DNA of 60,388 bases from Desulfovibrio sp. (GTDB taxonomy: Bacteria > Desulfobacterota > Desulfovibrionia > Desulfovibrionales > Desulfovibrionaceae): NCBI GenBank assembly GCA_016284885.1, contig JAEEPQ010000002.1:1-60388 (forward strand), read 5' to 3'. A program made the position numbers and the translations under genes. Position 1 is the first letter of the stretch, and every line of letters begins with the position of its first letter. The notes beneath the pieces were generated by a model. It was not told where the DNA came from and ran no database searches. It saw nothing but the letters and a program-made list of their open reading frames with translations. Below are positions 21,054-35,510 of the stretch, piece after piece.

Positions 21054-21863
21054 ATGATAGGCGCCATCATCGGCGACATGGCTGGCTGCAGGTTCGAGCG
21101 CCATGCCCACCAGCCAGGCCTCGATCCCCTCGACTTTCCCCTCTTTTCCGAGCGCACCAGCTTCACGGACGACACGGTGCTCTCCTTTGCCGTGAGCGAG
21201 GCCCTCATGGAGAGCAAGGGCGATGCGCAGCGCATGCGCGATGCCTGCAGCCGGCGCTTCAAGGCCTTCGCCTGCAGGTATCCACGGGCTGGCTACGGCC
21301 GGCGCTTCCGGGAGTGGGCCTTCAGCAAGGACACCACGCCCTTCGGCAGCTTCGGCAACGGATCTGCCATGCGCGTCTCGCCCGTGGGCTGGAGCTTCGG
21401 GACGCTGGAGGAGACGGAGCGCATGGCCAGGGCCTCGGCCGAGCCGACCCACAACCATCCCGAGGGCGTCAAGGGCGCCTGCAGCGTGGCGGCCGCCATC
21501 TTCCTTGCCCGCCAGGGGCAATGCCCAGAGGAGATACGCGACCATATCCAGCGCGCCTACGGCTACGATCTGTCCCAGCACATCCCAGAGATAGGCAATA
21601 CGGGCTTCGACTCGACCTGCCAAGGATCGGTTCCGCAGGCCATCGTCTGCGCCCTTGAAACGGCAAGCGTCGAGGATGCCGTCCGCTCTGCCATACTCCT
21701 GCGCGGCGACGCGGACACCCAGGGCGCCATTGCCGGAAGCATCGCCGAAGCCCTGTGGGGCGTGCCGGAGGATCTGAAGAACGAGGCGGAAGCGCGGCTC
21801 GACGGCTATCTGCGGGACTGCCTCCAGCGCTGGCGCAGCTGGCTTGCTGGACGCAGGGCCTAG
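21054..21863 (+). CDS. ADP-ribosylglycohydrolase family protein (copy 1)
   Basis: MIGAIIGDMAG, FTDDTVLSFAV, NGSAMRVSPVG, HNHPEGVKGA, RGDADTQGAIAGSIAEALWG. Confidence 0.88.
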   Translation: MIGAIIGDMAGCRFERHAHQPGLDPLDFPLFSERTSFTDDTVLSFAVSEALMESKGDAQRMRDACSRRFKAFACRYPRAGYGRRFREWAFSKDTTPFGSFGNGSAMRVSPVGWSFGTLEETERMARASAEPTHNHPEGVKGACSVAAAIFLARQGQCPEEIRDHIQRAYGYDLSQHIPEIGNTGFDSTCQGSVPQAIVCALETASVEDAVRSAILLRGDADTQGAIAGSIAEALWGVPEDLKNEAEARLDGYLRDCLQRWRSWLAGRRA

Positions 21864-21999: not shown

Positions 22000-22821
22000 A
22001 TGATAGGCGCGATCATCGGCGACATGGCAGGTTCCCGTTTCGAGCACCATCCCCACCGGGCGGGCATCGACCCCCTCGGCTTTCCCCTCTTCACCGGAGA
22101 GTCCCGCTTCACCGACGACACGGTCATGAGCATTGCCGTGAGCCAAGCCCTCATGGACGCAGCAGGCGATCCGGACAGACTGAGCGAAGCCTGCGCCCTG
22201 CGCTTCAAGGAGTACGGGCGCCGGTACCCCGCTGCCGGCTACGGCGGCCGCTTCAGGCAGTGGCTCGCCAGCGACGACATGCGCCCCCTCGGCAGCTTTG
22301 GCAACGGCTCGGCCATGCGCGTCTCGCCCGTGGGCTGGAGTTGCGGGACGCTAGAGGAGGCGGAGCGCATGGCCAAGGCCTCGGCCGATGCGACCCACAA
22401 CCATCCCGAGGGCGTCAAGGGCGCCTGCAGCGTGGCTGCGGCCATCTTCCTCGCCCGCCAGGGCCAGAGCCAGAAGGAAATCCGCCGCTACCTCCAGCGC
22501 GCCTACGGCTACGACCTGGACAAGAGCCTAGACGAGATAGGCAATACCGGCTTCGACGTCACCTGCCAGGGCTCGGTGCCGCAGGCCATCGTCTGCGCCC
22601 TCGAAACCTCGAGCGTCGAAGAGGCCGTGAGGTCCGCCATACTCCTGCGCGGCGATGCAGACACGCAGGGGGCCATAGCCGGAAGCATCGCTGAAGCCCT
22701 GTGGGGCGTGCCGGAGGATCTGTTCGCCGAGGCGGCGAGGCGACTTGACCGCTTCCTGCTCGACGGCCTCGGACGATGGCTCGCCTGGCTTGGCGAAGGC
22801 CAGCACAGCCTCGCGCAGTAA
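22000..22821 (+). CDS. ADP-ribosylglycohydrolase family protein (copy 2, tandem paralogue)
   Basis: Same motifs in the same order as copy 1; near-identical start MIGAIIGDMAG. Confidence 0.88.
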   Translation: MIGAIIGDMAGSRFEHHPHRAGIDPLGFPLFTGESRFTDDTVMSIAVSQALMDAAGDPDRLSEACALRFKEYGRRYPAAGYGGRFRQWLASDDMRPLGSFGNGSAMRVSPVGWSCGTLEEAERMAKASADATHNHPEGVKGACSVAAAIFLARQGQSQKEIRRYLQRAYGYDLDKSLDEIGNTGFDVTCQGSVPQAIVCALETSSVEEAVRSAILLRGDADTQGAIAGSIAEALWGVPEDLFAEAARRLDRFLLDGLGRWLAWLGEGQHSLAQ

Positions 22822-23872: not shown

Positions 23873-25420
23873 CTAGAAGCTGTACTTGAACATGCAGGAC
23901 ACGCGGTAGTTGTCGCGGTAGACGTTGGAATGCCTTCCCTCGCCCCAGGTGTCCTTGTCCAGGTTCAGGCGCACGTAGGCGCCCTCAAGCTGGAAGGTCA
24001 GATTCTCGTATATCTTGTAGGTGTTCACGAGGTTGACTTCCCAGGCGTTGTCCTTGGTGGTGAGATAGGCCATGGGGCCGTCGGCGCGGTTCGGCCAGTT
24101 CATGCCGATGCGCCCGGGCATGTCGCTGCTGTTGGTGCCGAGGTAGAAGCCGACGCGGACGAGGTGAGTCAGGTCGGGAACAAAGGAGATCTTGTCGATC
24201 TGGGCGATGACGCCCGCCGTGCCGCCGGGGTTGTGGCCGAGCACCTTCCAGGTCTGCTCGTCGAAGCAGGGATCGCCGAAGCCGAGGGAGCTGACGGCCC
24301 AGGGAGTGTTGAACTGCGGCAGGCGCTCGGACCCGTTGTAGGGATTGTCGTCGTCGCCGGAACCGTACCAGGCGATGATGCCGGGGACGCCCCAGTCGGC
24401 CTTGTAGTCGAGGCGGGCGCCAGCGTACCAGCCCTGGCGCTTCATCTGCAGGGTGCGACCCTTGTCGCCGAAGCCGCCGTAGTTCTTGATTTCGCCAAGG
24501 TACACGGATCCAAAGGCGCCTTCGACGCCAAGACGCAGGGTGCCCGTCAGATCGAACTGGCCCACGAGGCCGGCCCAGAAGCCGTTGCCCCAGTCGCGGT
24601 CGAGCTTGTGGAGTTCATTGCCCTGCAGCCAAGTGTAGCCGCGGTTGCCACCTGTGGGCACGCCACCGCCGAGGACGGGGGTGAGTCCGCCACGGGGGGC
24701 GACAATGCCGGTGTCGCCCATGGCCGCCGTGACGCCGGTCATGCTGTACTTGCCGATGAGCGAGTACATAGCATAGGGCTCGAGCTTCCAGCCGTCGCCG
24801 CGGAAGGGGAGCATGAGGGCAAAGCAGTCCAGGTTGTCGAGCCACCGGGTCTTCGAATCGGCGACGTTGGTGTACTCCTGGGCGGAGTTGTCGTTGTAGG
24901 GCCTGGCCCAGAAGAAGGTGAGATCGCTCTGCACGCTCTCGCCCTTGAAGAGGGGCGAGGAGACGGAGACACCCGCCATTTCCTTGCCGAAGATGGGGCC
25001 AAAGCCGTACTTGGAGAGCACGCCGGGCAGCATGAGCGTCTGCAGGCCCATGCGAACCTTGGCGTCGGTCTGGGGAACCATCCAGTCAATGTAGGCGAAG
25101 CGGACCTGGACAATCTTGCCGTCAGCGCCGAGGGCGCCGCCGTTAGCGGCCTTGCCCCACTCGGTGCGACCGATTTCGAACTCGATCGTGCCGGAGAGCG
25201 ACTCGCTGGCCCTGGCCTGCAACTGGGTGCGGAATCGCTGGATGGCATCGAAGCTGTCGGAGCCCTTGTAGCCACGGGGAACGACGTTGGAGTGCTCGAA
25301 GCCGACAACCCAGGCGCCGGAGATCTTGTAGTCTATGGACTGCGCTGGGGAGGCAGAGAGGGCGGAGCACAGCAGGGCGCCCGCCAGGGTGGCCAGTACT
25401 TTCTTTCCTGAAATGTGCAT
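23873..25420 (-). CDS. Outer membrane porin (Desulfovibrio-type homotrimeric porin)
   Basis: Signal peptide MHISGKKVLATLAGALLCSALSASPAQS, alternating beta-strand pattern, terminal aromatic ...CMFKYSF. Confidence 0.85.
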   Translation of the reverse strand: MHISGKKVLATLAGALLCSALSASPAQSIDYKISGAWVVGFEHSNVVPRGYKGSDSFDAIQRFRTQLQARASESLSGTIEFEIGRTEWGKAANGGALGADGKIVQVRFAYIDWMVPQTDAKVRMGLQTLMLPGVLSKYGFGPIFGKEMAGVSVSSPLFKGESVQSDLTFFWARPYNDNSAQEYTNVADSKTRWLDNLDCFALMLPFRGDGWKLEPYAMYSLIGKYSMTGVTAAMGDTGIVAPRGGLTPVLGGGVPTGGNRGYTWLQGNELHKLDRDWGNGFWAGLVGQFDLTGTLRLGVEGAFGSVYLGEIKNYGGFGDKGRTLQMKRQGWYAGARLDYKADWGVPGIIAWYGSGDDDNPYNGSERLPQFNTPWAVSSLGFGDPCFDEQTWKVLGHNPGGTAGVIAQIDKISFVPDLTHLVRVGFYLGTNSSDMPGRIGMNWPNRADGPMAYLTTKDNAWEVNLVNTYKIYENLTFQLEGAYVRLNLDKDTWGEGRHSNVYRDNYRVSCMFKYSF

Positions 25421-25516
25421 GAAATCCTCCGAAGAAGCGGTTTTGAGTCCCGCCAGACCCGCCTCTGCCAAGGATTTGTGGAAATGCTTCTGCCATGGAT
25501 CCGGCATCTGCGCCTA

Positions 25517-25528
25517 TAGCCCAGGCTA
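25517..25528. promoter_or_regulatory. Putative operator, copy 1 (between porin and regulator 1)
   Basis: TAGCC-CA-GGCTA, perfect inverted repeat with 2-nt spacer; 97 bp upstream of the porin ATG. Confidence 0.6.
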
Positions 25529-25681
25529 GTTCTCAAAAAAAAGCTTTTTCCGTTTCCTTTTACGCATGGCTCACCGACTGCCCCGGCCCGCGCTCTTTGC
25601 CTCTGTGTCCGATGTTTGCTACTGGTTTCACAAGCTGTCCGAGAGCGTGCCCCGCGAGGGCCGCGGCGACGGGAGGTGCAC

Positions 25682-26407
25682 ATGTCCCACTCAGCCGGAA
25701 CCGGCCTTTTGAAGGCATCGGCCCTTGCCCAGCGCAAGGCGGAATACGAAGCCATCCTGCGATCCATCGGCACCGAGCACGTCCTGCGCAAGGGAGAGAT
25801 CCTGCGCACGGGCAACATCTGCTACCTGCTCAAGGGGCTGTGCATCTTAAGCTTCTACGACCACTGCGGGAACGAGACGACGCTCATCTACTTCGAGCCG
25901 GGGAGGCTCTTCAACTTCATGCCCAAGCTCGTCAAGATCTACCCTCTCCAGCCCAAGACGGTCCGCAGGCAACTGCCCATCGACGCCTTTGCCGTGCGCG
26001 CCAAGGAGGACTGCCTCTTTCTGTTCATCGACCACAACGTCTTCGAGCGCGAGCTGGCAAAGAGCCTCCCCCTGCACTCGCTCCTCGTGCAGTCGCTGAC
26101 CGAAAACTGCGAGAACCTCATCTCCCATGCCGGCAACTCGCCCCTGCTGCCCGCCCCCCAGCGCATCTGCCGGCTGCTGGCGGAGATGATGGCGGAAGAG
26201 CCTCCGCATGCCGTTCCCTCCTACTTGAGCTACAGCGAAATCTCTCTGCACCTGGCCATCCATCCCATCACGGTCGCCAAGATATTCAAGGCGCTGAAGG
26301 AGGACGGCATCACGGAGAGGAAGGGCAGAACGCTGACAGTGGCCGATCCAGAACGCCTGTGCGCCATAGCCCGCGGCATGGAGGACTTCGAGTACAAGCG
26401 TTCCTAG
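25682..26407 (+). CDS. Crp/Fnr family transcriptional regulator 1
   Basis: cNMP-binding-like N domain (KGEILRTGNICYLLKGLCILSFYD) and C-terminal HTH (YLSYSEISLHLAIHPITVAKIFKALKEDG). Confidence 0.85.
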   Translation: MSHSAGTGLLKASALAQRKAEYEAILRSIGTEHVLRKGEILRTGNICYLLKGLCILSFYDHCGNETTLIYFEPGRLFNFMPKLVKIYPLQPKTVRRQLPIDAFAVRAKEDCLFLFIDHNVFERELAKSLPLHSLLVQSLTENCENLISHAGNSPLLPAPQRICRLLAEMMAEEPPHAVPSYLSYSEISLHLAIHPITVAKIFKALKEDGITERKGRTLTVADPERLCAIARGMEDFEYKRS

Positions 26408-26457
26408 CCTGCCGGACAGGCTTTCTGGCCCTCTGGCCACGCCGGGACGGCTCTCCG

Positions 26458-26469
26458 TAGCCTAGACTA
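26458..26469. promoter_or_regulatory. Putative operator, copy 2 (upstream of regulator 2)
   Basis: TAGCC-TA-GACTA; 88 bp upstream of the GTG start. Confidence 0.6.
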
Positions 26470-26556
26470 ATACCGGACCCTGGCTCCCTGCTGTAGAGCT
26501 GTGGCAGATGCGGGGCGCCGGCTGGCGGCGCCCTGCCAAAACGACAGGAGTCCAGC

Positions 26557-27312
26557 GTGAACAGTCACGGCAAGGAAGCCAGGGAGGACGTGGCGGCGCG
26601 CAGGCAGGCCTGCGAGGCTCTGCTGCGGCGCATCGGAAAGGAAGAGCGCCTTGCCAAGGGCGCGCTTCTGCTCACGGACCACATCTACTATCTTTTGGAA
26701 GGCCTCTGCGCGCTGATCCACTTCGGCCCGCTCGGCGAGGAGAGCTCCCTTATCTACTTTGAAGCGGGACGGATGCTGAATTTCCTGCCCAAGCTCTCCC
26801 GGATCTACCCCATGCAGCCAAAGACCCTGCGCCGCAGGCAGCCCCGCGACACCTTCGCCGTGCGCGCCAAGTCGGCCTGCCGGCTTGTGCGCATCGACCA
26901 CGACGTCTTCCTGCGCGAGCTTGAGCAAAGCGCCCTCCTGCACAGCCTGCTTGAGCAGTCGCTGATGGAAAACTGCCTCAACCTCCTGGCCAGAGCCGGC
27001 AACTCGCCCCTGCTGCCCGCCCCCCAGCGCATCTGCCGGTTGCTGGCAGAACTCATGCCGGAACGTGCGCCCTACAGGCTGCCCCGGTACATGAGCTACG
27101 CCGAAATGGCCGTGCACCTTTCCATCCATCCCGTCACGGTGGCCAGAATCTTTCAGGCCCTCAAGGCCGAAGGCATAGCCTGGCGGGATGGCGGAGCGAT
27201 CTGCGTCTTCGATCCGGAGCGCCTGCGCCGCATGGCCTGCGGGGAGGAGGCGCTTGCCTACAAGCGCGCCGCGTCCGGATCAGAAAAAAATGAGAAAAAA
27301 AGCGCACGTTAG
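26557..27312 (+). CDS. Crp/Fnr family transcriptional regulator 2 (paralogue of regulator 1)
   Basis: GTG start; HTH YMSYAEMAVHLSIHPVTVARIFQALKAEG nearly identical to regulator 1. Confidence 0.85.
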   Translation: MNSHGKEAREDVAARRQACEALLRRIGKEERLAKGALLLTDHIYYLLEGLCALIHFGPLGEESSLIYFEAGRMLNFLPKLSRIYPMQPKTLRRRQPRDTFAVRAKSACRLVRIDHDVFLRELEQSALLHSLLEQSLMENCLNLLARAGNSPLLPAPQRICRLLAELMPERAPYRLPRYMSYAEMAVHLSIHPVTVARIFQALKAEGIAWRDGGAICVFDPERLRRMACGEEALAYKRAASGSEKNEKKSAR

Positions 27313-27321
27313 TCCAGGCTA
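27310..27321. promoter_or_regulatory. Putative operator, copy 3 (upstream of permease; overlaps regulator 2 stop codon)
   Basis: TAGTC-CA-GGCTA; 91 bp upstream of the permease ATG. Confidence 0.6.
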
Positions 27322-27411
27322 ATACTGCCGCCTGCAGGCTTTCTGTACACAGGAGCCATCAAGAGTCCCCGTCAGACCCGCAAGCCCCATTCCCCTGAGG
27401 AGAGTATCAGA

Positions 27412-28947
27412 ATGGAACAAGCTCGCGAAAAAACCTCGGTCATGCCCCTCGTGCACACGCTCATCGGCCTGGCCATCATGTTCTCGGGACACTTTCTGCC
27501 CTGCCTGTCCCTAGTGGCCCCTGCAGACCAGAAGCTGCTCGGCCTCGGCTTCCCGCAGGTTGACGGGGGCGTTCTGCTCAGCGTCACCCACACGGGCATG
27601 GTCGTCTCCATGATCTTCTTCGGCGTCATCTACCTGTGGACCTTCGTCGACACCATCTGGCCGGGCCTGCTCGGCATCGTCGCCCTCATCTTCAGCGGCT
27701 TCGCGCCGGCACCCAAGGTCCTGCAGATGTTCCTCGGCAATCCCATGGTCGTCATGATCTTCTTCCTGCTGATTCTGGCGGCGGCCATCGTCTACAGCAA
27801 CCTTGCCGAGTGGATAGCCCGCTACCTCATGAGCCGGGAGTTCATCAACGGCAGGCCATGGATCTTCACGGCCACCATCCTGCTCACGACCTACCTCGTG
27901 GCCTTCCTCGACCAGCCGACGGCGTGCTTCCTCATGTGGCCCGTGCTCTTCTCTATCTTCAAAGCCGCAGGCTTCAAGAAGGGCGACACCTACGTCTCGG
28001 TCATGACGGTCTACATCGCCATCATGGCCCTGCTCTCCTTCGCCTCCGACCCCTTCAAGGGCGGCGCCTTCTATCTGCTCTCCAACCTGCACAGCCTGGC
28101 CGCCAACGACGCGGCCCTCCACGCCCCCGAGCTCAACACAGCCGTCTACCTGCTCTTCGGCCTCGCCATCTCCCTGTGCAGCATCGCGATCCTTATGCTC
28201 ATGATGCGCTTCGTCTTCCGCGTGGACGTTGCTCCGCTGGCAAAGCTCGACCCCTCGGTGCTCAACAAGGAGCCGCTCCCGCCCATGAACGCCATGCAGA
28301 AGCTCGTGCTCTTCGACTTCCTGCTCTACGCCACCTGGCTGCTCCTGCCCGCCGTCATCGGCAAGGGCAACGTGGTCGGCGCCTTCATGGCCAAGCACCA
28401 TATGGCCGGATCCCTGCTCGCCGTGCTCCTGCTCACCGTGGTTTTCGTCAAGCGCAAGCCCGTGGTCGACATCACCGTGTCCAACAGGGCCTACCCCTGG
28501 CGCGTCTTCCTGCTCATCGCCGTCGCCATGCTGCTCGGCGGCGTCATGACAGGCAAGGGCACCAACGTCTCCCTCTTCATGGAGTACGGCCTGCGCGATC
28601 TGCTCGGCGGCATGCACTACATCACCTTCACCATCGCCGTCTGCCTCATCGGCATCGTCTTCACCAACTTCTGCAACTCGGTTGTGCTGGGCCTGGTGCT
28701 CACCCCGGTGCTCATCTCCGTGGCCAACGCCTTCGGCATGGGCGGCGGCCCCATGATGGCCTGCTTCATCTACGCCGTGCTCATCGCGGCCTGCACGCCG
28801 GCAGCCTCGCCCTTCGCGGCCCTGCTCTTCGGCAACACCGAGTGGGTCGATCAGAGCCTCATCATCCGCTACAGCGTCATTGCCTCCCTGTGCATCTTCC
28901 TCGTGGTGTGCACCGTCGGCCTCCCGCTTGCCATGATGCTCTTCTAG
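27412..28947 (+). CDS. DASS/SLC13-like anion permease
   Basis: 511 aa with about 12 hydrophobic segments; ion-transporter-like regions (NPMVVMIFFLLILAAAIVYSNLAEWIA; MMACFIYAVLIAACTPAASPFAALLFGN). Confidence 0.7.
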   Translation: MEQAREKTSVMPLVHTLIGLAIMFSGHFLPCLSLVAPADQKLLGLGFPQVDGGVLLSVTHTGMVVSMIFFGVIYLWTFVDTIWPGLLGIVALIFSGFAPAPKVLQMFLGNPMVVMIFFLLILAAAIVYSNLAEWIARYLMSREFINGRPWIFTATILLTTYLVAFLDQPTACFLMWPVLFSIFKAAGFKKGDTYVSVMTVYIAIMALLSFASDPFKGGAFYLLSNLHSLAANDAALHAPELNTAVYLLFGLAISLCSIAILMLMMRFVFRVDVAPLAKLDPSVLNKEPLPPMNAMQKLVLFDFLLYATWLLLPAVIGKGNVVGAFMAKHHMAGSLLAVLLLTVVFVKRKPVVDITVSNRAYPWRVFLLIAVAMLLGGVMTGKGTNVSLFMEYGLRDLLGGMHYITFTIAVCLIGIVFTNFCNSVVLGLVLTPVLISVANAFGMGGGPMMACFIYAVLIAACTPAASPFAALLFGNTEWVDQSLIIRYSVIASLCIFLVVCTVGLPLAMMLF

Positions 28948-29008
28948 CCCGCAACCAGCCATCTTTCACAGCGCACCCAACTTTCATCCTTCCTTCCGAG
29001 GTACCAGC

Positions 29009-29938
29009 ATGGACAGCAACAAGTACGACATCGTCATCGTCGGCGCCGGCCCCTCCGGCCTCACCGCCTCCGTCTACGCCGTCAGGGCCAACATGAAGAC
29101 CCTGCTGCTCGACAAGCTCTCCCCCGGCGGCCAGATCATCAACACCAACGAGATTGCCAACTACCTTGGCGTGGGCACCATCAACGGCGCCCAGCTCGCC
29201 ATCCAGATGTTCGAGCAGTCCCAGGCCGCCGGCGCCGAATTCGACTACAAGACCGTGACCGCCATCGAGGATCACGGCGACACCAAGGTCGTGGTCTGCG
29301 AAGAGGACGGGGCCCGCATCGAGTGCCATGCCGTCATTGTTGCCACCGGCACCCGCCCCCGCCGCCTCGGCGTGCCCGGCGAGGACAATTTCGCCGGCTC
29401 CGGCATCAGCTGGTGCGCCATCTGCGACGGCGCCCAGTACGAGGGCAAGGACGTGGTCGTCATCGGCGGCGGCAACTCTGCCGTCGAGGAGTCCATCTAC
29501 CTCGCCGGCATCGTCAACAAGCTCACCGTCGTCACCATGTTCGACCTCACCGCCGACCCCTCGGCCTGCGACAAGCTGCGCGCCATGCCCAACGTCACTG
29601 TCTACCCCTACCAGGACATCCTCGAGTTCCTGGGCGAGGATAAGCTCGAAGGCGTGCGCTTCAAGTCCACCAAGGAGGACGCCACCGAGCGCACCGTGAA
29701 GTGCGACGGCGTCTTCGAGTACATCGGCCTGCAGCCCACCGCCGGCTTCTGCGAGAGCCTCGGCATTCTGGACCGCGGCTTCATCAAGACCGACGCCCAG
29801 ATGCGCACCTCCATGCCCGGCGTCTTCGCCTGCGGCGACATCATCGTCAAGCAGCTGCGCCAGGTCGCCACCGCCTGCGGCGACGGTGCCGTCGCGGCCC
29901 ACAACGCGGCCGCCTACGTCGAATCTCTGCGCAAGTAG
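29009..29938 (+). CDS. trxB: Thioredoxin reductase (FAD-dependent)
   Basis: IVGAGPSGLTASVYAVRA, active site SWCAICDGAQY, GGGNSAVEE, GVFACGDI. Confidence 0.93.
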   Translation: MDSNKYDIVIVGAGPSGLTASVYAVRANMKTLLLDKLSPGGQIINTNEIANYLGVGTINGAQLAIQMFEQSQAAGAEFDYKTVTAIEDHGDTKVVVCEEDGARIECHAVIVATGTRPRRLGVPGEDNFAGSGISWCAICDGAQYEGKDVVVIGGGNSAVEESIYLAGIVNKLTVVTMFDLTADPSACDKLRAMPNVTVYPYQDILEFLGEDKLEGVRFKSTKEDATERTVKCDGVFEYIGLQPTAGFCESLGILDRGFIKTDAQMRTSMPGVFACGDIIVKQLRQVATACGDGAVAAHNAAAYVESLRK

Positions 29939-29977
29939 TGCACAGCATATTTCCCTTCACTCCAAGGAGACCCCGCC

Positions 29978-30289
29978 ATGATCACCGAAGTCAACACCGC
30001 CCAGTACGATGCCCTCGACAAGAAGGGCCCCATGCTCGTCGAATTCTACTCCAAGACCTGCGGTCCCTGCAAAATGCTCGGCTTTGTCCTCAAGGACGTG
30101 GACAAGAACGACCCGGACTTCCGCATCTACCAGGTCGAGTTCAACGAGAACAAGGAGCTCAAGGACCGCTGCGGCGTGAAGGGCTTCCCCACCCTGCTCT
30201 TCATGAAGGACGGCCAGGAGGTCTCCCGTCTCGAGGGCCTCAAGCAGAAGCCCGTCATTCTCAAGGAAATCGAAAAGATCAAAGCCTAA
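29978..30289 (+). CDS. trxA: Thioredoxin (no signal peptide)
   Basis: VEFYSKTCGPCKML with CGPC motif; cis-Pro GFPTLLF. Confidence 0.93.
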   Translation: MITEVNTAQYDALDKKGPMLVEFYSKTCGPCKMLGFVLKDVDKNDPDFRIYQVEFNENKELKDRCGVKGFPTLLFMKDGQEVSRLEGLKQKPVILKEIEKIKA

Positions 30290-30320
30290 GACACAAGGAA
30301 ACATACAGGAGAACACAGCC

Positions 30321-32201
30321 ATGGCAAACCGCGTCGAACACGTCCGCTACGACCACCTGATCACCCGCCAGAACCGCGCCGAGAAGGAGTTCCTGGCCCG
30401 CCTCGAAAACGAGAAGCCCCGCCTCGACAACGCCATCGTCGTCGTCAACCCCTACCTCATCAACCCCCTGGCGGCCATGATACTCTTCAAGAGCGACAAG
30501 CCCGCCAAGGCCGTCCTCACCGTCCATGGCAAGCGCAACGACCGCGAGGACATCGTCCACGAGTTCCCCGAAGCCACGTCCCACGCCCTGCCCGTGCTCG
30601 GCCTCTACGAGGGCATGCAGACCCGCGTCACCGTCGCCCTCTCCACCGGCGAATCCCAGGACTTCCTGATCCAGAGCCAGCCCCTGCCCAAGGGCATCTG
30701 CCGCTGCCGCAACGTCGCCACTTCCCTCGACTACTTTGGCACCAACTGGATGTTCCTCAGCCCTGCCGGCAAGAACCTGCCCACCGCCTTCGACTACAGG
30801 GGCGACATCCGCTGGATACTCACCGAGAACACCATGTTCGACATCAAGCGCGTGAAGAACGGCAACATCATCACCGGCTCCTCCCGCTTCTGCCACATGC
30901 CCTACAACTCCACGGGCCTCATCGAGCTCAATCTGCTCGGCAAGATCTACAAAGAATACCGCATGCCCGGCTGCTACCACCACGACCACTTCGAGATGCC
31001 CGACGGCAATCTTCTGGTCTGCACCCAGGACTTCTCCCGCGACACCGTCGAGGACATGCTCGTCCTCCTCGACCGCGAGACCGGCGAAGTGCTGCGCAGC
31101 TGGGACTACAGGAACATGCTGCCCCAGGACGTGGCCGGCTCCGGCTCCCAGGACCACCACGACTGGTTCCACAACAACGCCGTATGGTGGAACGAGAAGG
31201 ACAATTCCGTCACCATCTCCGGTCGCCACCAGGACGCCGTGGTGAACTTCGACTACGAAACGGGCAAGGTGAACTGGATTGTCGGCGATCCCGAAGGCTG
31301 GCCTGAAGACATGCAGAAGTACTTCTTCAAGCCTGTGGGCGATCTCTCCAAGTTCGACTGGCAGTACGAGCAGCATGCCTGCGTCATCTGCCCCGACGGC
31401 GACGTCATGTGCTTCGACAACGGCCACTGGCGCTCCAAGAACAAGGAGAAGTACCTCAAGAACAGGGACAACTTCTCCCGTGGCGTGCGCTACCGCATCG
31501 ACACCAAGAAGATGGAGATCGAGCAGGTCTGGCAGTACGGCAAGGAGCTTGGCCAGGACTTCTTCTCGCCCTACATCTGCAACGTCGAATACTACGGCGA
31601 AGGCCACTACCTGGTCCACTCCGGCGGCATAGGCTGGGACCACGGCTGGGCCTCGGAGAAGCTCGGCGCCTACATCAAGCTCGGCGACGAGGGCTACGAC
31701 ATCAACTCCAAGACCGTTGAGCTCAAGGACGACGTGGTCATGTACTACCTCGAGGTGGACGGCAACTTCTACCGCGCCGAGAAGCTCACCCCATACCATG
31801 ACGGCGACAACGCCCCCTTCGGCGACGGCAAGCTCCTTGGCCAGCTCGAGGTGACCCCCGACTTCGGCACCATTCCGGATCTCGAGGAGACCTCCGAAGT
31901 CGTGGACGCCTGGAACCAGATCCGCATCGAAGAGGACGAAGACCGCCTGGTCTTCCACGGCCGCTTCCAGCGCGGCCAGCTCGCCATGGTCATCATGGAC
32001 AACGGCAGCGAGAAGAAGGGCTACTTCATCAATACCGCGGCCGTGAGCTACCTTGCCATGTGCTCCGGCGCCTTCCTTGAGGACGACGACCGCGTCATCA
32101 AGATGAACATCAGCAAGAGCAGCCTGCCCGCCGGCAAGTGCGAGGTGAAGGTGCTCGTGGAAGACAGGATCTTCCAGACCGGCGTCGTCATCTGCAACTA
32201 G
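30321..32201 (+). CDS. Arylsulfate sulfotransferase (ASST family), no signal peptide
   Basis: YHHDHFEMPDGNLLV, DHHDWFHNNAVWWNEKDNSVTISGRHQDAVV, WQYEQHACVICPDGDVMCFDNG match the conserved His/Arg blocks of ASST; N-terminus MANRVEHVRYDHLITRQNRAEKEF is hydrophilic. Confidence 0.88.
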   Translation: MANRVEHVRYDHLITRQNRAEKEFLARLENEKPRLDNAIVVVNPYLINPLAAMILFKSDKPAKAVLTVHGKRNDREDIVHEFPEATSHALPVLGLYEGMQTRVTVALSTGESQDFLIQSQPLPKGICRCRNVATSLDYFGTNWMFLSPAGKNLPTAFDYRGDIRWILTENTMFDIKRVKNGNIITGSSRFCHMPYNSTGLIELNLLGKIYKEYRMPGCYHHDHFEMPDGNLLVCTQDFSRDTVEDMLVLLDRETGEVLRSWDYRNMLPQDVAGSGSQDHHDWFHNNAVWWNEKDNSVTISGRHQDAVVNFDYETGKVNWIVGDPEGWPEDMQKYFFKPVGDLSKFDWQYEQHACVICPDGDVMCFDNGHWRSKNKEKYLKNRDNFSRGVRYRIDTKKMEIEQVWQYGKELGQDFFSPYICNVEYYGEGHYLVHSGGIGWDHGWASEKLGAYIKLGDEGYDINSKTVELKDDVVMYYLEVDGNFYRAEKLTPYHDGDNAPFGDGKLLGQLEVTPDFGTIPDLEETSEVVDAWNQIRIEEDEDRLVFHGRFQRGQLAMVIMDNGSEKKGYFINTAAVSYLAMCSGAFLEDDDRVIKMNISKSSLPAGKCEVKVLVEDRIFQTGVVICN

Positions 32202-32253
32202 CCTTCCCCTTCCCTTTCCTCATACGCTATTCCACATTCTCCCTTAGCTTGAA

Positions 32254-32287
32254 GCGCCCCGCCCCGTCTCCGGGACGGGGCGCTTTC
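32254..32287 (+). terminator. Intrinsic terminator after ASST gene
   Basis: GCGCCCCGCCCCG / CGGGACGGGGCGC (one C-A mismatch), loop TCTC, followed by TTT. Confidence 0.7.
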
Positions 32288-32306
32288 TGCCCTTAAGGAG
32301 GCAGGC

Positions 32307-33614
32307 ATGGCTTTCGTTTCCTATCCCGGCTTCGCCGTTCCTGAAGGGGTGCGACACGCTCCTCTCGCCCGGCGCACCGTCCGGCCGCATCCGGACGTGC
32401 TGGCCTTCGTGGGCTACAGCTCCTCCATCTTCTCGGCCATCAGGACGCCGCACGGCTATTATCTGGTCGATGCCGGCGACGACGTGCCGGGCGTGCGGGA
32501 CGCGCTTGCCGAAATCAGACGCTTTGCGCCAGGCACCCTTCAGGGCATCTTCCTGACCCACAGCCACCCCGACCACCGGGGCGGAGGGAGCATCTTCCTC
32601 GAGGAGGCCAGAGGACGGGAGATCCCCGTTTGGGCTCACCATGCCTTCGGGAGCGAAATGCAGGACGGCCGGGGCCTCGAGCGGATTCTGCAGACACGGG
32701 CAGGCCGGCAGTTCGGAGCTGGCATCCCCGATGCCGAGTACACGTCCAACTCCCTGCTTCCGCACTTTCCAGGAGGCTTTGCCGGCCCCCTGCTGCAACC
32801 GAACCGCCAGATCTTCGAAGGCAGGACGCGTCTCTACGCCGACGATCTCGCCGTGGATCTGCTGACCGTTCCCACGGAGACCGGCGACCACATGGAAGTC
32901 TTTCTGCCCGAGAGCCGGGTGCTCTTCTCGGGCGACGCCGTCTACGGCGCCCTCCCCAACCTCTATCCCCTGCGCGGAGGATGCTGGCGCCAGGCTGAAC
33001 GCTGGACGCAGGGCATACGGCGCCTGCTGGAGCTCGATCCCGAGGCCGCCGTGTGCGGACACAACCTGGTGCTACAGGGCCGGCAGGCGGTGCGCCAGGC
33101 CTTCGAGCGCTGCGCCAACGCCATCGAATGCATCGTGGCCGAAACGCTCAAGGGCATGGACGAGGGGCTGGGACCGGACGAGCTCGCCTGCCGGGTGCGC
33201 CTGCCCGAGGAGCTTGCGCGCGACCCCAATCTTGGCGAATTCTACGGCGCCGTGCCCTTTATCGTGCGCGAAATCTACGTAGCCAAAATGGGCTGGTTCG
33301 ACGGCAATGCGACGAACGTCGTTCCTTTGGATCCCTGGGAGGAGGCGGAGCGCCTGGCCAGGCTTGCGGGTGGCGCGGCGGCTCTGGCCGCGCAGGCGCA
33401 GAGCGCGCTTGCCGAAGGCGACTGGCGCTGGACCTGCCGGCTCTGCGACTGGCTCCTGCGCCTTGGTCCCGAGCATGCCGCGACAGCCCGCGGCATGAAG
33501 GCCGAGGCGCTGGAGGCGCTCTCGCAGGAAATCCTGCCCATGGCGGGACGCAACTGGCTCAAGTCCTCTGCCATGGCATTGCGGGAGGAAGGGCAGGAGG
33601 ATGCCGGGCAGTAG
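32307..33614 (+). CDS. Metallo-beta-lactamase-fold, SdsA1-like (type III) alkylsulfatase family protein lacking the C-terminal SCP2-like domain
   Basis: HSHPDHRGGG metal motif; NLYPLRGG; alkyl-sulfatase dimerisation-type segment LGEFYGAVPFIVREIYVAKMGWFDGNATNVVPL...RLAGGAAALAAQAQSALAEGDWRWTCRLCDWLL. Confidence 0.75.
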   Translation: MAFVSYPGFAVPEGVRHAPLARRTVRPHPDVLAFVGYSSSIFSAIRTPHGYYLVDAGDDVPGVRDALAEIRRFAPGTLQGIFLTHSHPDHRGGGSIFLEEARGREIPVWAHHAFGSEMQDGRGLERILQTRAGRQFGAGIPDAEYTSNSLLPHFPGGFAGPLLQPNRQIFEGRTRLYADDLAVDLLTVPTETGDHMEVFLPESRVLFSGDAVYGALPNLYPLRGGCWRQAERWTQGIRRLLELDPEAAVCGHNLVLQGRQAVRQAFERCANAIECIVAETLKGMDEGLGPDELACRVRLPEELARDPNLGEFYGAVPFIVREIYVAKMGWFDGNATNVVPLDPWEEAERLARLAGGAAALAAQAQSALAEGDWRWTCRLCDWLLRLGPEHAATARGMKAEALEALSQEILPMAGRNWLKSSAMALREEGQEDAGQ

Positions 33615-33848
33615 ACCGGCTCGCCCGCCTCAGCATCAAGCTCTCCCGCTTGGCCTGAAGGCAGAGCAGGGGACACTGCCTGTCGCCGCAGAGGCGGGCG
33701 CCAGCCTTTTGCGGCAGCCGGTCCCGTCCGCAAGGTTCTGGCGCCCGAGCCTGTCCTGAAGCGATGCCGGGAGCGCCTGTTGCCTGCCGCCAGAAAGCCA
33801 GATAGCATGCTCCAAGTCCAGACAACACATGACGACAGGAGCACAGCC

Positions 33849-35510
33849 ATGCTCAGCCCGCGCATTCTTATTGGCGGAGAATCCTTTCGGGAACTTCGCG
33901 AAGGGAACTACGCCTATATCGACAAGACAGCGCTCTTGGAGGATCTCCTCGGCCAGGACAGGCCCAAGGTAGCCTTGATTACGCGCCCGCGTCGCTTTGG
34001 CAAGACCCTGACAATGAGCATGCTGCATGAGTTTTTCGATATCCAGAGAAACAGCAACAATATTTTCAATGGATTGGCTATTGCTGAAAATACAGATTTC
34101 TGTGCGACATGGATGAATAAATTCCCAACCATATTTATATCGTTAAAAGAAATAAAAGGAAGAACATTTTCTCATTCATACGACAAGTTTTTAAGCTATG
34201 TTTCAGAAATTTTCTTAGACAACAGCTATCTTCTCCATAGTGAAAAGATCCATAACAGGCACAAAGAAAGAATTCAGTCGTTTATTGATGAAAAAGTAAA
34301 GCAAAACGATACTGAAAATTCATTTTTATTTTTGTGCAAAGTTTTAAATAAATATTGGAACAAAAAAGTTATAGTTCTTATTGATGAATACGATGTTCCG
34401 CTTTATTATTCAGAGCAAAAGGGCTATTATGATGAAATGATTGATTTTATGCGTCAATTTTTAGGGGCAACATTAAAAGGAAATGACTATTTAGAACTAG
34501 CCGTATTAACAGGATGTCTACGAATTGCAAAAGAAAGCATTTTTACAGGGGTTAATAATTTTGAATGTTACGGTGTTTCTGACATAAAAATTTCAGATAA
34601 AATTGGATTTACAAGTAGTGATGTTGACTTAATACTAAATGTTAATAAATTAGAGTACAAAAAAAATATTATAAAAGAATGGTATGATGGATATAGGTTT
34701 GGCAACACAAGTGAAATGTATTGCCCGTGGGATGTTTTAAGATTTGTTTCAAATCTTAAGTATGATCCAAATGTTTTGCCAGAATCATTTTGGGTTAACA
34801 GTAGTTCAAATGATATCATCGAAAAGATGATTAAGCACTCAACAATGAGCATAAGGCAAAAAATTGAAAAATTGGTTTCATTAAAATACATAAATGAAAG
34901 AGTCTCAGAATATCTTACATACGATTCTCTTTACACAAATGATGAAAACATTTGGTCAATATTATATTCTACAGGATATTTGACAAAATCTGAAACAGAA
35001 TCTAAAAATGGAACTACTTCGCTCAAAATACCAAATAAAGAAGTTCTTGAAATTTTTGTACAAACAATAAAGCAGTGGGTTAAAACGGTAATTGATAAAA
35101 ACATTTCTCATCTTTTAGAAAATTTCTGGAAAGGCGACGAAAAATCTATTGAAAATATTCTGAATACAATTCTGTTGCAAACGATAAGCTACCATGACAA
35201 CGCCGAAAACTACTATCATGGCTTTGCAACGGCCTTGTTTGTCGGCACCCCGCTTGAGGTGACCAGCAACCGCGAAAGCGGCGACGGCCGTCCCGATGTT
35301 GTCGTTGCCGATCCCGACGGCCGGCGAGGCTTCGTGCTTGAACTCAAGCATGCCGAGTCGGAAGACGCCCTGGAAGCTGGCGTCCAGGAGGCGCTCGACC
35401 AGATAGCGAAGTTCAGATATCTCGACGGCCTGCCCGCAGGCATGAAGCAGCGCCGCGCCTACGGCATTGCCTTCCATAAGAAGCATTGCGCCGTCAGGCT
35501 CTTCCGCTGA
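33849..35510 (+). CDS. AAA-ATPase-like / PD-(D/E)XK nuclease superfamily protein (DUF1703 type)
   Basis: GNYAYIDKTALLEDLL, RPRRFGKTLTMSML Walker A-like, VIVLIDEYDVPL Walker B, C-terminal GDGRPDVVV..RGFVLELKHA. Confidence 0.88.
   Translation: MLSPRILIGGESFRELREGNYAYIDKTALLEDLLGQDRPKVALITRPRRFGKTLTMSMLHEFFDIQRNSNNIFNGLAIAENTDFCATWMNKFPTIFISLKEIKGRTFSHSYDKFLSYVSEIFLDNSYLLHSEKIHNRHKERIQSFIDEKVKQNDTENSFLFLCKVLNKYWNKKVIVLIDEYDVPLYYSEQKGYYDEMIDFMRQFLGATLKGNDYLELAVLTGCLRIAKESIFTGVNNFECYGVSDIKISDKIGFTSSDVDLILNVNKLEYKKNIIKEWYDGYRFGNTSEMYCPWDVLRFVSNLKYDPNVLPESFWVNSSSNDIIEKMIKHSTMSIRQKIEKLVSLKYINERVSEYLTYDSLYTNDENIWSILYSTGYLTKSETESKNGTTSLKIPNKEVLEIFVQTIKQWVKTVIDKNISHLLENFWKGDEKSIENILNTILLQTISYHDNAENYYHGFATALFVGTPLEVTSNRESGDGRPDVVVADPDGRRGFVLELKHAESEDALEAGVQEALDQIAKFRYLDGLPAGMKQRRAYGIAFHKKHCAVRLFR

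Follow-up and report, generated by a model that had tools for sequence, protein, structure and literature searches.

A thioredoxin-linked sulfotransferase module with a probable role in reductive organosulfate desulfation in Desulfovibrio and gut Bacillota

Why would a sulfate reducer keep a thioredoxin reductase and a thioredoxin next to an arylsulfate sulfotransferase (ASST)? The question is raised by an eight-gene island in the window, i.e., the 60,388-nucleotide stretch of a Desulfovibrio sp. contig (JAEEPQ010000002.1) analysed herein; all numbering is in window positions, open reading frames were read from the sequence, and family matches were taken from profile searches. An earlier note on this DNA had placed the island and proposed a module for organosulfate uptake and desulfation that feeds sulfur respiration. 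The eight genes were all recovered there as open reading frames, each with a matching family, and the short gaps reported between the co-oriented permease, trxB, trxA, and ASST genes were confirmed (61, 39, and 31 bp). The general proposal is also supported in outline, by conservation in relatives and by a shared operator. The reason for the presence of the thioredoxin pair was not addressed in that note, yet the pair appears to be the key part of the module. Our analysis indicates that the module probably imports organosulfates, most likely aryl sulfates, and desulfates them reductively to sulfite by way of this pair. We also lean toward regarding the thioredoxin-linked ASSTs as an enzyme system of a new kind, namely a sulfate-ester reductase that depends on thioredoxin. 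In it, the sulfuryl group would pass to an enzyme cysteine and be released as sulfite, opening an ATP-free organosulfate-to-sulfide route to sulfate reducers, to Mailhella, and to many Bacillota of the gut. The conserved unit consists of the following genes:

23873 to 25420, minus strand: outer-membrane homotrimeric porin, DESULF_POR1 (NF033939, 364.6 bits, cut-off 250)
25682 to 26407, plus strand: crp1, Crp/Fnr-type regulator 1 (PF13545, 41.7 bits)
26557 to 27312, plus strand: crp2, Crp/Fnr-type regulator 2 (PF13545)
27412 to 28947, plus strand: inner-membrane permease, CitMHS / ion-transporter superfamily (PF03600, 49.6 bits)
29009 to 29938, plus strand: module TrxB, dedicated thioredoxin reductase
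29978 to 30289, plus strand: module TrxA, dedicated thioredoxin (PF00085)
30321 to 32201, plus strand: cytoplasmic cysteine-loop ASST, thioredoxin-linked (PF05935, 346.8 bits)

By both sequence and fold, the best match of the ASST is Escherichia coli AssT (Foldseek top matches 3ets/4p04, E 7e-27), the model having a mean predicted local distance difference test (pLDDT) score of 91.6. Residues H221, H284, N286, R302, and H352 correspond to H252, H356, N358, R374, and H436 of E. coli AssT, with all five catalytic positions conserved in 100/100 aligned ASSTs of the thioredoxin clade. No signal peptide is visible in the sequence, which begins MANRVEH, bearing out the earlier description of a signal-less enzyme; the CNENGLC disulfide loop of the E. 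coli enzyme is absent from the aligned protein, in keeping with a cytoplasmic location. Cys581, likewise present in 100/100 members, is located on a loop of ~20 residues (571-590), and this loop is an insertion absent from 17/17 other ASSTs, several of which have signal peptides; neither trx nor asr genes were found nearby in eight loci encoding distant ASSTs. We thus define a cysteine-loop, thioredoxin-linked ASST clade by the invariant C581 on this insertion together with trxB/trxA adjacency, to which the window ASST, judged from its sequence, belongs. The active site also bears on the identity of the substrate, which is not revealed by the permease and porin. The position of E. coli AssT T501 is occupied by Ile419, with Cys420 adjacent, and the same reductive chemistry might thus act on a natural donor other than an aryl O-sulfate, such as S-sulfocysteine, thiosulfate, sulfamates, or alkyl sulfates. 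We regard such a donor as unlikely given that all five catalytic residues of the aryl-sulfate enzymes are kept and that p-nitrophenyl sulfate is used in vitro by Cluster II relatives from Hungatella, Desulfosporosinus, and Desulfitobacterium (PMC13426309).

The earlier note had suggested a search for conserved co-occurrence in relatives, and the module does recur across two phyla. In a profile scan of GTDB genomes, which yielded 80 named loci with an ASST, both trxB and trxA adjoin the ASST in 54, spanning Thermodesulfobacteriota (26 of 30 loci) and Bacillota. The gene order is trxB-trxA-ASST in Desulfobulbales, Desulfovibrio, Lachnospiraceae, and Erysipelotrichales, and ASST-trxB-trxA in Desulfosporosinus and some Desulfovibrio, with the ASST often present as a tandem pair. 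A permease homologue (28-75% identical) is found in most module loci, the porin adjoins the module in L008, L010, L031, L035, and L045, and a crp1 orthologue does so in L008 and L035. Same-genus loci read porin-crp-permease-trxB-trxA-ASST; about 12 of the 79 species in the genus carry a full or fragmentary copy of the thioredoxin-linked ASST, the closest named relatives in the scan being Candidatus Desulfovibrio intestinipullorum and other gut Desulfovibrio metagenome-assembled genomes. The window would thus most likely derive from a gut Desulfovibrio that is uncultured. When 23 further genomes, picked mostly because one locus had no local trx genes, were checked for a module-type TrxB, 18 encoded one somewhere in the genome. 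Pairwise distances between ASSTs correlate with those between TrxB, TrxA, and permease proteins (Mantel r 0.66, 0.70, and 0.77, respectively; 0/999 permutations as high), a correlation to which shared ancestry contributes. Recurrence of the module across two phyla is more than chance.

Several variants were encountered in the same survey. In L097 (G089) and L100 (G081), the ASST contains an in-frame stop or is split in pieces; the module thus seems to decay in some lineages. In other Desulfovibrio (L012 and L013, from G026 and G013), two different ASST-like genes, one with a signal peptide and one without, flank a porin with no thioredoxin genes, an arrangement separate from the module. An orotate-phosphoribosyltransferase-like/GfcR-like protein is a frequent neighbour of the module Crp gene in Bacillota (17 loci, among them L072:3573-4295).

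What, then, is the thioredoxin pair for? Module TrxB forms its own monophyletic branch apart from housekeeping TrxB, with 57-84% identity across phyla versus 33-40% to the housekeeping TrxB of the same genus. It lacks the NADPH motif HRRxxxR, and NADPH is therefore less likely than NADH as its predicted electron donor. The active site of module TrxA reads T-CGPC rather than W-CGPC, Thr preceding CGPC in 62 of 64 module TrxA proteins. Such a pair might merely keep the cysteines of the ASST reduced, or switch the enzyme by redox state, leaving the ASST as an ordinary aryl sulfotransferase of detoxification or signalling. A redox partner has precedent in DsbL/DsbI, which folds E. coli AssT (PMC13426309), and Cluster II aryl sulfotransferases (ASTs) do sulfate phenols in vitro (PMC11468790). 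However, housekeeping thioredoxin would suffice for this task in the cytoplasm, and such a role offers no reason for the linkage to sulfite reductase, siroheme, and TauE genes, nor for the restriction of these ASSTs to sulfite-reducing genomes, both detailed below; we consequently consider it doubtful.

The genomic surroundings instead point to sulfite. In 10 Bacillota loci, asrA, asrB, and asrC (encoding anaerobic sulfite reductase) all lie within the ASST locus, beginning 50-235 bp 3' of the ASST on the same strand in 9 of the 10, and siroheme biosynthesis genes often come after asrABC. Representative AsrA/B/C proteins score above NCBIfam cut-offs, and the probability that asr linkage at this frequency (10 of 41 such windows) arose by chance is ~1e-14, a rough figure to be taken only as a guide as the loci are related. 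At L061, AsrA/B-like genes and a TauE/SafE sulfite-exporter homologue are positioned just 5' of the ASST. All 57 ASST genomes tested contain an AsrC (28 above cut-off) or DsrA (26 above cut-off) sequence, the remaining three, including that of the window, having partial DsrA matches at or near contig ends. In a sample of 150 Lachnospiraceae genomes, AsrC is present in 5/5 with a thioredoxin-linked ASST versus 25/145 others (P=2.4e-4), and a low-scoring AsrC subtype in 5/5 versus 2/145 (P=3.5e-8). The module-linked AsrC of Bacillota is indeed a distinct, lower-scoring subtype (~350-387 bits vs 470-570 for ordinary AsrC).

ATP sulfurylase (Sat), conversely, went undetected in 28 of 51 ASST genomes, namely 24 Bacillota, two Mailhella, G106, and G020 (the last an incomplete metagenome-assembled genome, 79% complete), while AprA was missing in 11 of the 15 genomes tested, Mailhella and G106 included. 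The asrABC linkage, the finding of a sulfite reductase in all genomes tested, and the lack of Sat in 28/51 thus together argue for sulfite as the product; a sulfate-releasing enzyme would serve no Sat-less genome, whereas a sulfite-releasing enzyme would serve all. This is where we part from the earlier note, according to which imported organosulfates are hydrolysed or trans-sulfated by the ASST and an SdsA1-like sulfatase, with free sulfate feeding ordinary sulfate reduction. The window's species does have Sat, AprA, and a partial DsrA, and the sulfatase homologue has the metal and dimerisation domains of alkylsulfatases, yet a sulfate product is at odds with the Sat-less genomes, leaves both the dedicated thioredoxin pair and the asrABC linkage unexplained, and relies on a gene that falls outside the module (see below); we judge it quite improbable. 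Sulfite could also arise indirectly if the ASST were to sulfate PAP or AMP to yield 3'-phosphoadenosine-5'-phosphosulfate (PAPS) or adenosine-5'-phosphosulfate (APS) for a thioredoxin-dependent reductase, as PAPS reductase is established to use thioredoxin and the product would be the same. This we find scarcely credible: no recurrent PAPS/APS-reductase-like family occurs among the examined ASST neighbour families (cysH was not searched genome-wide), and AprA is missing in most genomes tested for it, as above.

Two features downstream of the ASST bear on our exclusion of the sulfatase gene:

32251 to 32286, plus strand: terminator-like hairpin between the ASST and sulfatase-like genes (-32.9 kcal/mol, z -4.8)
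32307 to 33614, plus strand: SdsA1/Pisa1-like metallo-beta-lactamase (MBL) alkylsulfatase homologue (PF00753 and PF14863)

The likeness to SdsA1 holds in part, in that the 435-aa protein has the MBL and Alkyl_sulf_dimr domains and matches PDB 4av7 (E 1.5e-31), while the C-terminal SCP2-like domain was not matched; no signal peptide is visible in its sequence. Its nearest relative in the genus (52%) is encoded in a genome without the module, which together with the hairpin excludes the MBL gene from the unit. Membership in the operon is further ruled out by the lack of a shared operator and of conservation, the gene being absent from the relatives' modules examined. Directly 3' of it (33780-35510) is an AT-rich AAA-ATPase_like/PDDEXK_9 gene, ~44% GC within a 65% GC region, that looks recently acquired.

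The genes within the unit, in contrast, are predicted to have one palindromic operator in common, as supported by three sites:

25517 to 25528, no strand assigned: TAGCCCAGGCTA, between porin and crp1
26458 to 26469, no strand assigned: TAGCCTAGACTA, between crp1 and crp2
27310 to 27321, no strand assigned: TAGTCCAGGCTA, ~90 bp 5' of the permease gene, overlapping the crp2 stop codon

The palindrome TAGYCYRGRCTA occurs at four sites in the 2.87-Mb genome, three of them within the island. The fourth, on contig C49, is flanked by the ends of two converging genes and is probably a chance occurrence. L008, L025 (Desulfofustis), and L035 have the same site 5' of their permease genes, with a relaxed form in L009/L018 and Mailhella. 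The protein that binds this predicted operator may be Crp1, Crp2, or both. HTH_Crp_2 was matched in both proteins, whereas for the cNMP-like sensor domain Crp2 scored under the cut-off and Crp1 gave no reported match; we make no claim of CprK-like phenol sensing, as the best PDB matches are to generic CRP and the similarity to CprK is confined to the helix-turn-helix region. The two genes are 57% identical, suggestive of a duplication.

From gene content, conservation, operator, thioredoxin lineage, sulfite reductase linkage and co-occurrence, catalytic residues, and the invariant cysteine, all observed here, we infer the substrate, thiol acceptor, sulfite product, and electron donor of the module as follows. 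An organosulfate, most likely an aryl sulfate, would pass the outer membrane by the porin, a probable entry route for organic anions, and the inner membrane by the CitMHS-type permease. In the cytoplasm, His352 of the ASST would take the sulfuryl group, as does His436 in E. coli AssT, and the phenol would be freed, a step that is established for AssT. The sulfuryl group would then move to a thiol rather than to a phenol. The likeliest acceptor is Cys581 on the flexible loop of the ASST or a TrxA cysteine, and transfer would form a thiol-S-sulfonate that TrxA would reduce to release sulfite; this thiol transfer and sulfite release are suggested by the genomic evidence. TrxB would recharge TrxA with reducing equivalents, probably from NADH. 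Sulfite would be passed to DsrAB in the window's species, and to AsrABC in Bacillota, to give sulfide, thus bypassing the Sat/Apr activation that depends on ATP. Either or both of the Crp/Fnr proteins would govern the porin, the regulators, and the operon via the shared palindrome.

Certain points weigh against this scheme. To our knowledge, no thiol acceptor has been reported for any AST, and the sulfite route is a proposal drawn from genomes. Model confidence is lowest over the C581 loop (pLDDT 65-76), and C581 could be structural. With Sat and AprA both present, the window's species could use sulfate too. Moreover, no module-type TrxB was found in 5 of the 23 further genomes, Peptococcaceae/Clostridia that have a cysteine-loop ASST (L060, L061, L062, L073, and L083); another reductant would be needed there.

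Were reductive desulfation to operate as proposed, it would provide a physiological role for bacterial aryl sulfotransferases. Gut bacteria, including those unable to reduce sulfate, would have a route for converting phenol sulfates of host, drug, and dietary origin to H2S and the free phenols, and ATP-dependent sulfate activation could be bypassed en route to hydrogen sulfide. No description of such a pathway was found in the open-access literature, subscription papers lying outside the search.

With respect to the locus itself, the porin gene is divergent, with crp1 and crp2 placed between it and the permease. The most likely start of the porin is at 25420, a correction under which M30 would open a signal-peptide-like stretch, and that of crp1 is most likely at 25682, also a correction. 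The permease had been described as DASS-like; while it matches CitMHS (PF03600), the DASS model TIGR00785 was not matched in the NCBIfam search and VcINDY gave only E=0.002. Further upstream lie two neighbouring genes (21054-21863 and 22000-22821) that closely resemble each other and, going by sequence alone, are ADP-ribosylglycohydrolase-like.

Among known systems, AssT-DsbL-DsbI of E. coli CFT073 (Cluster I) shares with the module its fold, domain order, catalytic His/His/Asn/Arg/His set, and a thioredoxin-fold partner in the operon. That AssT, however, resides in the periplasm and depends on a disulfide that DsbL introduces, whereas the module ASST has no signal peptide or CNENGLC loop, is paired with reducing thioredoxin proteins, and carries the extra cysteine loop. 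The proposed logic is shared with PAPS reductase (CysH), in which a cysteine accepts the sulfuryl group and thioredoxin frees sulfite; there the fold is unrelated, and the module donor would be an organosulfate with no ATP activation. In organosulfonate respiration, taurine/isethionate sulfite-lyases of Bilophila-type bacteria likewise supply sulfite from an organic source to Dsr, bypassing Sat/Apr. It is found in similar bacteria, but relies on C-S lyase chemistry on sulfonates as opposed to the proposed S-O cleavage of sulfate esters.

Dedicated thioredoxin pairs also have precedent. DvTR3/DvTrx3 of Desulfovibrio vulgaris is a second, NADH-preferring pair in a sulfate reducer (PMC5627308, in which no sulfotransferase is mentioned); module TrxB resembles DvTR3 in missing the HRR motif, a likeness at the level of the motif. 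In the glycine reductase operon of Clostridia, TrxA3/TrxB3 are a dedicated pair that supplies electrons to a reductase of energy metabolism (PMC10880999), with substrate and enzyme differing from those of the module.

The module ASST shares its protein family and species range with the Cluster II PAPS-independent ASTs (DhAST of Desulfitobacterium hafniense, and those of Hungatella, Desulfosporosinus, and Niameybacter), the genomes of the latter three genera carrying the cysteine-loop ASST clade. These enzymes are active in sulfuryl transfer in vitro (PMC13426309, PMC11468790) and have been studied as in vitro sulfation tools, unlike the role proposed here; a 2026 review, which does not mention thioredoxin or sulfite, terms the physiological role of ASTs "poorly understood" (PMC13426309). 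The AST of Eubacterium A-44 transfers without hydrolysing and is induced by donor sulfates (PMC13426309), behaviour that would fit the mechanism proposed for the module.

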